A DNA stretch of 64,000 nucleotides, from contig QOQA01000001.1 in NCBI GenBank assembly GCA_003331875.1, positions 1-64,000 on the forward strand. Reading direction: 5' to 3'. Position 1 is the stretch's first letter. Each line of letters begins with the position of its first letter. Made by a program: the position numbers and the translations under genes. The notes beneath the pieces are model-generated. The model ran no database searches, was not told the DNA's origin, and worked only from the letters and a program-made list of their open reading frames with translations. The stretch comes from Cryomorphaceae bacterium. GTDB taxonomy: Bacteria; Bacteroidota; Bacteroidia; Flavobacteriales; Flavobacteriaceae. Shown here in pieces: positions 26,340-29,433 of this stretch.

Positions 26340-27185
26340 ATGCAAAAATTATTTATTTTATTGTCAATATTTTTAAGCTCTCCTATATTAAATGCACAAC
26401 TCAAATCACCAGTTGCTAGCCCAAGAGCTAACTTGAGCCAGGATATAGGATTGGTCAATATAAGTGTGGATTATTCAAGACCTTCAAAGAAGGGAAGGAC
26501 CATTTTTGGAAATTTGGTCCCATACAACAAAATTTGGAGAACAGGAGCCAATCAAGCTACAACATTTAGTGTTTCGGATGACATTAAAATAAATAATCAA
26601 CTTGTACCAAAAGGTGAATATCATATTTATTCAGTTCCTAGAGAAAAAAGACTTGATTTAATCATATACAATCAAACTGACAATTGGGGTTCCTTAAAAG
26701 AATTTGATGAAAGTCTGATAGTTGCAAGAGTTGTTTCAGATTTTATTGAATTACCATTTTCTGTTGAAACATTCGAGATATCTTTTGATAACATTAGTAA
26801 TAATGGATCAACTATAAATATTATTTGGGATAATAAATTGGCTATTTACTATCTTGATGCTCTCACAAAGGAGAAAATGATTGCAAACATTCAAAGTGTT
26901 TTAATAAAAAATCCAAAGCCAAGTGACTATCAGAAAGCCGCTGTTTACTACTACGAAGAGGATTTAGATAAAGAAAAAGCTTTCGAATGGATTAACAAGG
27001 CTTTTGAGAGTTATAAAGATCCTAAATATTGGCAACTAAGAGTAAAAGCCTTAATATATAACTACTATGGTAAGAAGAAAGAAGCTTTAAAAATTGCAAA
27101 ACAAGGATTAAAACAAGCTGAAAAATCAGGTGTTCCAGATGGATTAAATGCTATGAGCCTATTGGTTGATAGGCTTTCTAAATAG
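26340..27185 (+). CDS. DUF2911 domain protein (exported)
   Basis: A 281-aa secreted protein. The signal peptide (about residues 1-19, ending LNAQ) is followed by a DUF2911 domain with SPRANLSQDIGLVNISVDYSRPSKKGRTIFG and IWRTGANQATTFSVSDDI. The C-terminal 100 residues form TPR-like helices around AVYYYEEDLDKEKAFEWINKA. Found widely in Bacteroidota and probably periplasmic; function unknown. The 3' end overlaps the convergent symporter gene by 27 bp, the longest such overlap in the window. Confidence 0.88.
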   Translation: MQKLFILLSIFLSSPILNAQLKSPVASPRANLSQDIGLVNISVDYSRPSKKGRTIFGNLVPYNKIWRTGANQATTFSVSDDIKINNQLVPKGEYHIYSVPREKRLDLIIYNQTDNWGSLKEFDESLIVARVVSDFIELPFSVETFEISFDNISNNGSTINIIWDNKLAIYYLDALTKEKMIANIQSVLIKNPKPSDYQKAAVYYYEEDLDKEKAFEWINKAFESYKDPKYWQLRVKALIYNYYGKKKEALKIAKQGLKQAEKSGVPDGLNAMSLLVDRLSK

Positions 27186-28829
27186 TGTTTGACGGAAAAG
27201 TATTGATAAAATTATGGTATTGATAGCACCAATAAAATTTAACCATAGATAACCAATATCCAAATTAAAATAAACGATAAAAATTATTGCTTGTGAAATG
27301 CAAGCTGCATAAAAAATAGAATTTCCACCAATTTTCTTAAAAAAGAAAGCTACTAGAAATATACCAAGAACAGTACCGTAGAATATTGAACCAATGATGT
27401 TTACAAGTTGAATCAAATTTTCAAATAATGTCCCAAAACTCGCAAAACTTATTGCTATTAATCCCCAAATCAAAGTAAAAAGTTTTGATGCCATCAAATA
27501 ATGATATTCACTTTTAATTTTTTTATGATTTCTCTTATAGAGGTCAATTGTGGTTGTTGCAGCTAATGCGTTAATTTCTGAAGCTGTTGATGACATTGCC
27601 GCACAGATTATAACAGCAATTAAAAGGCCAATAATTCCTCTTGGGAGATTATTTAGTATGTAGTGAAGGAAAACATAATCTTTATCTAAAACTTCAATAT
27701 TTGGATTATCATTTTCAATTTCCTTATAAATTTTATTTTTTATTTTCTTCTCTTCATTTTGGATTCTGATAATTTTGTTTTTATCAAGCCTTGAGCTCAA
27801 GATGTAATTATCTAAAAGATCTTTTTTTTTGTCCTGTATTATTGAAAACTCATCAAGTAAAATATCATAGTTTTTGTTATTCGATTCCTCAATATAATTT
27901 ACCACTTGTGGGTTAAAATTTACAGGAGCTGAGTTAAATTCATAAAAAATAAATACCATTACACCTAGTAATAGGATAAAAAATTGCATAGGAATTTTAA
28001 AAATTCCATTAAAAATTAATCCTTGTCTTATTTCTTTAATTGATTTACCTGATATATATCTTTGGACCTGACTTTGATCTGTTCCAAAATATGAAAGGGC
28101 CAAGAACAAACCACCTGTTATACCACTCCAAAATGTATATCTACTCTCATAATTAAAAGAAAAGTCCAAAATGTTTAATTTGTTACTAACACGTGAATAA
28201 TTCAAAAACTTATTTAATGTAAAGTTCTCAGGATAGCTTTCTATTAATAAGAAAAAAACAAAAAATAAACCTAAGAATATTACAAACATTTGTTGTTTTT
28301 GAGTAACATTCACTGCCTTTGTACCGCCTGTTATTGTATATATTATAACAAGAAAACCTATAATCAGGTTTAGTATTTTTATATCTATATTTAGTAAGGT
28401 AGAGAGTATTATTGATGGGGCAAAAATTGTTATGCCTGCTGCAAGCCCCCTCTGTATTAAAAATAATATTGCACCTAAAACTCTTGTTTTTTTATCAAAT
28501 CTTTTTTCTAAAAATTCATAAGCCGTGTAAACCTTCAATCTGTGGTATAGAGGCACAAAAAATATACATATGATGATCATTGCCAAGGGAAGTCCAAAAT
28601 AGAACTGAATAAAACCCATACCATCATTGTACGCTTGTCCCGGAGTAGATAAAAAAGTAATTGCACTTGCTTGGGTTGCCATAACTGATAAACCAATAGT
28701 AAACCAGCCTGTTGAGTTATTCGCTTTTAAAAATGATTTAATATTACTGTTTTTCCTAGTTCTATAAGAACCATAAAAAACAATTATTAGTAAAGTTGTG
28801 ATTAAAACTGCCCAGTCTATTATTTCCAT
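27159..28829 (-). CDS. Sodium:solute symporter (SSS family)
   Basis: A 556-aa Na+-coupled transporter of the SSS/SLC5 family with about 13 membrane segments. Landmarks are FTIGLSVMATQASAITFLSTPGQAYNDG, VYTAYEFLEKRF, ITGGTKAVNVT and AMSSTASEINALAATTTIDLYKR. A charged, coiled-coil-like insert of roughly 90 residues (about 295-385) lies between two membrane segments; related flavobacterial symporters carry a comparable one. The substrate cannot be assigned. It starts 2 nt after a 27-aa membrane ORF and follows kdsC in the same unit. Confidence 0.9.
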   Translation of the reverse strand: MEIIDWAVLITTLLIIVFYGSYRTRKNSNIKSFLKANNSTGWFTIGLSVMATQASAITFLSTPGQAYNDGMGFIQFYFGLPLAMIIICIFFVPLYHRLKVYTAYEFLEKRFDKKTRVLGAILFLIQRGLAAGITIFAPSIILSTLLNIDIKILNLIIGFLVIIYTITGGTKAVNVTQKQQMFVIFLGLFFVFFLLIESYPENFTLNKFLNYSRVSNKLNILDFSFNYESRYTFWSGITGGLFLALSYFGTDQSQVQRYISGKSIKEIRQGLIFNGIFKIPMQFFILLLGVMVFIFYEFNSAPVNFNPQVVNYIEESNNKNYDILLDEFSIIQDKKKDLLDNYILSSRLDKNKIIRIQNEEKKIKNKIYKEIENDNPNIEVLDKDYVFLHYILNNLPRGIIGLLIAVIICAAMSSTASEINALAATTTIDLYKRNHKKIKSEYHYLMASKLFTLIWGLIAISFASFGTLFENLIQLVNIIGSIFYGTVLGIFLVAFFFKKIGGNSIFYAACISQAIIFIVYFNLDIGYLWLNFIGAINTIILSILFRQTLFRKPINQ

Positions 28830-28831
28830 AA

Positions 28832-28915
28832 TTAAACTAGAAATAAAAAAAATAAAACATATAGGATGTTAAGCATAATTAAAACTGAATATTCCCTCTT
28901 CCAGTCAAACATCAT
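28832..28915 (-). CDS. Putative 27-aa single-pass membrane peptide
   Basis: Too short for the ORF track. The minus strand encodes MMFDWKREYSVLIMLNILYV..., a charged N-terminus then one hydrophobic helix ending in LFFLFLV. Its ATG overlaps the kdsC stop as ATGA, and its TAA lies 2 nt before the symporter ATG, so it exactly fills the space between two co-directional genes. That fit argues for a translated ORF and not chance. No homologue is recalled. It may be a small accessory subunit of the symporter. Confidence 0.6.
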   Translation of the reverse strand: MMFDWKREYSVLIMLNILYVLFFLFLV

Positions 28916-29433
28916 ATATTTTTTTGATTATTTTTTATTTTCCAATCACCATTTATTCTTAAAACTTGTTCAATTACATCCCTTACACATCCATCTCCAC
29001 CATTTTTAATAGAAATGTAATCAGCAACTTCTTTAACCTCAGGACATGCATCAGATGGGCATGAAGAAAGACCAACTTCTTTTAGAATATTAATATCGGG
29101 CAGGTCGTCACCCATGAAAAGTGTTTCGTTGATATTCAAATTATTTTCTGATAAAAAATTATCAAAAACTTTTTTCTTATCATCAACACCTAAAAAAATA
29201 TTTTTAACCCCCAGTTTTGACAATCTTTTTCTTACACCCTCGTTATTTCCACCACTTATTACACAAAAGTTATATCCTATGTCAGTTGCAAATTTTACAG
29301 CAATACCATCCTTGGTATTGAATACTCTCATTTCATTGCCATCAGAATCAACAATTATTGATCCATCCGTAAAAACCCCGTCAACATCGAGAATAAAGTT
29401 TTTAATTTTGTGTAATTTTTTCTTATAAATCAT
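28912..29433 (-). CDS. kdsC: KdsC-type HAD phosphatase
   Basis: HAD-superfamily subclass IIIA enzyme (173 aa), most likely 3-deoxy-D-manno-octulosonate 8-phosphate phosphatase for the LPS inner core. The nucleophile motif DVDGVFTDGS is at residues 16-25, the second motif is CVISGGNNEGV, and FMGDDLPDINIL holds the distal acidic residues. No cap domain is visible, as expected for the KdsC tetramer. It overlaps the upstream DUF2520 gene by 11 bp and the downstream 27-aa ORF by 4 nt. Confidence 0.9.
   Translation of the reverse strand: MIYKKKLHKIKNFILDVDGVFTDGSIIVDSDGNEMRVFNTKDGIAVKFATDIGYNFCVISGGNNEGVRKRLSKLGVKNIFLGVDDKKKVFDNFLSENNLNINETLFMGDDLPDINILKEVGLSSCPSDACPEVKEVADYISIKNGGDGCVRDVIEQVLRINGDWKIKNNQKNI

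Follow-up and report, generated by a model that had tools for sequence, protein, structure and literature searches.

In the window, by which we mean the whole stretch of 64,000 nucleotides that was analysed, a 26-aa open reading frame (ORF) lies directly upstream of a symporter gene of the SSS family. Our comparison of genomes indicates that it probably encodes a one-helix accessory subunit of that symporter, which it would bind and affect. The small gene stands beside the symporter in nearly every member of the phylum that has this transporter, and its product is therefore very probably a part or a helper of it.

Reading frame and start codon

Positions 28915..28832 of the minus strand translate as MMFDWKREYSVLIMLNILYVLFFLFLV followed by a stop, a 27-mer when counted from the first ATG. 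The original prediction had described a 27-aa ORF that starts in an ATGA overlap with the kdsC stop and ends 2 nt before the symporter ATG. Both junctions can be read directly in the sequence: the TGA stop of kdsC is overlapped by the first ATG of the ORF (28915-28913), and two bases separate the TAA of the ORF, which ends at 28832, from the ATG of the symporter at 28829. The frame exists as described, but its length had to be revised. The ORF opens with two adjacent ATGs, and only the second stays ATG among relatives, some of which have TTG ahead of it while others begin there through a TAATG or TGATG overlap. Met2 (28912) has an A at position -3, which promotes initiation in F. johnsoniae and is favoured in Flavobacterium (PMC6847099). 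Since relatives keep only the second ATG, the conserved start is, on this comparison, Met2 at 28912, and the product has 26 aa (Table 1).

Table 1. Coordinates of the small gene and its neighbours in the window
Feature	Position	Strand	Basis
Conserved small membrane protein gene, 26 aa from Met2: MFDWKREYSVLIMLNILYVLFFLFLV	28832..28912	-	Starts of relatives; A at -3
Upstream alternative start (Met1), an ATG that overlaps the stop of kdsC; not kept as ATG in relatives	28913..28915	-	
SSS-family solute:sodium symporter, 556 aa, the gene tracked by the small ORF	27159..28829	-	PF00474, TIGR00813
kdsC-type HAD phosphatase, adjoining the small ORF in the window genus only	28912..29433	-	TIGR01670

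A DUF2520 protein is also encoded among the neighbours of the ORF in the window. At its 3' end the symporter gene meets a convergent gene for a DUF2911 protein (PF11138; 26340-27185, plus strand), and positions 27159-27185 are common to the two reading frames.

Conservation and coding pattern

Close relatives were compared for a conserved ORF as against its loss or frameshift, in 19 genomes of the window genus with kdsC adjacent to the symporter (the window genome included). A short ORF of 24-29 aa is present in 19/19 of these intact junctions, inside a spacer of 81-91 nt, with the consensus M.NWKKEYSIVLLLNLIYLIIFLLIM, and the peptide is retained across the genus although the length of the spacer and the frame relative to kdsC vary. 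In nearly all pairs within the genus pS is higher than pN, typically by a factor of 2-5, and between representatives of the genus clusters second codon positions account for 1-2 of about 17-31 differences.

Changes in the small ORF fall mainly at third codon positions: the differences at the three positions in close pairs are 124/51/397, with mean entropies of 1.02/0.51/1.55 bits. When the Flavobacteriaceae set is aligned on the tryptophan, W0, Y4, V7, L8, N11, Y14, F18 and M/T22 are invariant or near-invariant; W0, Y4 and N11 served to select or anchor rows and are thus partly selected, whereas V7, L8, Y14 and F18 did not. Conservation is periodic at 100-110 degrees, as in a helix (permutation p = 0.0012; p = 0.04 in the rest of the phylum), and the invariant residues fall on one helix face. 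A short, AT-rich frame in a short intergenic spacer might arise by chance, but such an origin is vanishingly improbable here: the conservation tests refute it, with the sequence, the position and the coding pattern all conserved across the phylum. Judged by these patterns of change, the small ORF is under real coding selection and is not a chance fit.

Distribution and co-occurrence with the symporter

Searched with the A1 profile, the window genome gives the small ORF at E = 4e-14; in 60 relatives every match at E < 1e-3 sits directly upstream of the symporter orthologue. We then counted both genes in a family sample of 151 genomes, one per genus, with a threshold of E <= 1e-4 for the small ORF. 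The symporter is present in 143/151 and the small ORF, by profile, in 134. Seven of the nine symporter genomes negative by profile carry a divergent copy in the same place, read by eye (for example MKKNKISKIYFGLVLTQIAYWSLFYLFMKYYN and MKRSTYFILIFLNLLYWIGFYQFMITYS), which brings the ORF to 141/143 symporter genomes; no copy was found in G297 and G375, which have the symporter. Among the genomes of this sample that lack the symporter, the ORF was found in 0/8 (Fisher p 4e-9 on the profile counts, a statistic that ignores shared ancestry). All but one of the profile matches (133/134) are no more than 130 nt away from the match to the symporter. The remaining one lies at 376 nt, at locus L318 of genome G314, where other sequence intervenes between the two genes.

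The phylum sample comprised 198 genomes, searched at E <= 1e-90 for the symporter and E <= 0.01 for the small ORF. The symporter matched in 81 genomes and the small ORF in 78, the matches of the latter in G219 being off-target. Both genes occur in 76 genomes, the symporter only in 5, the small ORF only in 1 and neither in 116; the ORF is thus found in 76/81 symporter genomes versus 1/117 without an intact symporter (Fisher p 2e-47, again ignoring shared ancestry). Three genomes of this sample (G170, G193, G201) have the symporter without a recognisable small ORF, and in two others with the symporter (G219, G224) it is absent or doubtful. Because these five and the two family-sample genomes have the symporter without a clear copy, the small ORF is not strictly indispensable. 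The sole genome with the small ORF only is G085, where a broken symporter remnant follows. At this locus (L209, 1-1461) a PIG-L deacetylase gene and an intact small ORF precede a decaying symporter, of which an N-terminal helix and a C-terminal remnant persist in different frames.

The same picture holds at symporter loci of named genera (Flavobacterium, Polaribacter, Maribacter, Zobellia, Tenacibaculum, Aquimarina and others), 80/80 of which carry the small ORF, 79 by profile and one (L269) by eye. Paralogous SSS symporters of the same genomes, at 25-37% identity, have no small ORF, and no symporter homologue was found among plasmid records. On these genome comparisons, adjacency and co-occurrence with one symporter orthologue group are near-strict across the phylum.

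Upstream neighbours and unlinked copies

The gene upstream of the small ORF differs by lineage and may be kdsC, Maf, a PIG-L deacetylase or WbqC. PIG-L precedes the ORF in most lineages, and in family members the ORF follows the C-terminal end of a ~830-aa PIG-L deacetylase; Maf is found there in G026 and mostly WbqC in family f36. In G030 and G036, kdsC lies ~6 kb away. In the searched genomes of the window genus, several of which are incomplete assemblies, no frame for a PIG-L of the 830-aa type was found; despite this absence, the genus keeps the ORF and the symporter wherever assemblies cover the locus. The ~830-aa PIG-L with a conserved C-terminal extension commonly precedes the symporter in other families as well (e.g. 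L054, L093, L217), and this neighbour might be a clue to the symporter substrate, possibly a deacetylated amino sugar.

The small protein could instead serve the upstream gene or its pathway (PIG-L deacetylase, kdsC, Maf or WbqC), its link with the symporter then reflecting shared operons. The frequency of PIG-L in that position would fit this explanation, as would unlinked copies of the ORF that stay beside WbqC (see below). We nevertheless consider it highly unlikely: the ORF keeps its place by the symporter even as the upstream gene changes by lineage, the window genus lost the 830-aa PIG-L and kept both ORF and symporter, and sampled genomes without the symporter also lack the ORF, except for G085 with its broken symporter. 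Taken singly, kdsC was rejected as the partner, as the ORF stays with the symporter where kdsC lies elsewhere, and so was PIG-L, given the loss of its gene in the window genus.

These results also bear on the remaining claims of the original prediction. It had taken the precise fit of the ORF between its neighbours as an argument for selection; selection on the ORF is borne out, as its conservation extends well outside the genus with mainly synonymous changes, but the tight fit beside kdsC is a side-effect of the loss of intervening genes in the window lineage, kdsC lying ~6 kb off elsewhere. Its suggestion of a role as a symporter subunit gains support, since it is the symporter, rather than kdsC, that the ORF accompanies, and SSS paralogues lack it; that role would involve physical binding.

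In four genomes (G084, G096, G112, G157) the small ORF is intact and shares a strand with the symporter, at a distance of ~15 kb (loci L213, L211, L212 and L210, respectively). In these unlinked copies it remains behind WbqC; locus L211, which was read in its entirety, has WbqC on one side of the ORF and the convergent gene of a PF00939 sodium/sulphate-type transporter on the other. The four copies differ mostly at third positions (e.g. 1/1/8 between L210 and L211). That they are intact points to a product that acts in trans, whereas their persistence behind WbqC leaves room for another partner.

The unlinked copies are also relevant to the idea that the ORF is a leader whose translation brings ribosomes to the symporter start, the peptide itself being inert. 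It has been proposed that short leader genes increase translation through reinitiation, and a peak in the distances is reported for Bacteroidetes too (PMC4833913); the spacing at our loci is commonly that close, a 4-nt ATGA overlap or 1-3 nt. However, it is loose in several cases (42-88 nt in L130, L138, L147 and L151, and 376 nt in G314), and an ORF intact ~15 kb off in four genomes is unexpected for a purely cis-acting leader. Moreover, coupling needs no strong conservation of amino acids, yet W, Y, N, Y and F are invariant on one face and second-position changes are few, and the Rfam search gave no match at the site that would point to an RNA element. Coupling alone leaves the conservation of the peptide unexplained and is insufficient, so that we regard an inert leader as unlikely; translational coupling may well exist in addition to a subunit role.

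Family and structure searches

The small ORF matched no Pfam or NCBIfam model at curated cut-offs, a sequence search of the PDB gave only chance matches (E 0.4), and the site had no match in Rfam. The symporter is assigned by PF00474 (139 bits, cut-off 22.8) and TIGR00813 (227 bits, cut-off 184). Its model has the SSS fold, with SiaT 5nva as the best Foldseek match (E 1e-18), and the nearest solved structures are SiaT (5nva/5nv9), NIS, SMCT1 and SGLT. No natural fusion of the ORF with the symporter was found among the phylum matches, whose open frames are <= 172 aa bar one weak off-target match. AlphaFold was run on stop-read-through fusions where ORF and symporter share a frame, a design whose short linker would bias placement; the small protein was predicted as one helix (pLDDT about 51-70), with no reliable docking on the symporter.

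Proposed role and significance

We propose that the small gene and the symporter would be translated from one operon, the former yielding a 26-residue protein predicted to span the inner membrane once. From its Lys/Arg-rich N-terminus and the positive-inside rule, an N-in, C-out orientation is predicted: the N-terminus, which also bears Trp and Tyr, would be in the cytoplasm and the C-terminus toward the periplasm. The conserved face (W5, Y9, L12/I13, N16, Y19 and F23 in the numbering of the 27-mer) may pack against the neighbouring SSS symporter, and the small protein would thereby stabilise, help assemble or modulate it as a dedicated accessory subunit.

If this is true, a whole unannotated protein family is present in a large share of Bacteroidota, common cultured genera included, and a bacterial SSS symporter gains a one-helix partner. 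A description of this family was not found in the literature that we searched, and an earlier one may exist elsewhere; in a 2021 review of prokaryotic SSS transporters the words 'subunit' and 'accessory' are both absent. More generally, a short overlooked ORF can be validated by comparative genomics alone.

Comparison with known small partners

Small subunits of bacterial SSS transporters include DUF4212 (TIGR03647), YjcH (DUF485) with ActP, and YhdT with PanF. The ORF described here resembles them in being a small membrane protein gene immediately upstream of an SSS symporter. However, these subunits are longer and have two or more helices, unlike our one-helix ORF. TIGR03647 is absent from the NCBIfam matches of the small ORF at E <= 1, DUF4212 and the other families of SSS small subunits are absent among the Pfam matches listed (best 25 of 37), and the symporter is not of the TIGR03648 large-subunit type (55 bits versus a cut-off of 320.75).

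KdpF, CcmD and CydX are very small single-helix proteins that pack on large membrane proteins and modulate them. Another is AcrZ, which packs against AcrB and modulates it (PMC7267776). Our pair differs from AcrZ-AcrB in the class of transporter and by the lack of a sequence match and, unlike AcrZ, the small gene adjoins its presumed partner, in a pairing that is phylum-wide.

A further parallel may be MAP17 (PDZK1IP1), which binds TM13 of SGLT2, is essential for uptake by SGLT2 and promotes the expression of this transporter at the surface (PMC10203128). As in MAP17 with SGLT2 or SGLT1 (human SLC5, that is, the SSS family), a small single helix stands beside a transporter of the same family, a partnership that we infer in our case. 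Homology is absent, the best match to PF15807 (E = 0.099, in 1/72 members) being not significant. MAP17 has a long cytoplasmic tail with a PDZ-binding motif, which the bacterial small protein lacks, and its orientation is opposite to the N-in predicted for the latter. Resemblance to MAP17 or AcrZ is therefore functional analogy at most, and not homology. We suggest, tentatively, that this one-helix family of 26-50 aa might be an activity-determining, dedicated subunit of a Bacteroidota SSS symporter, an independently evolved counterpart of MAP17-SGLT2; in that case, single-helix subunits would have been acquired at least twice by SSS transporters. The reason for which SGLT2 requires MAP17 is still under debate, and a genetically tractable Flavobacterium pair with a partner of 26-36 aa would make such questions testable.
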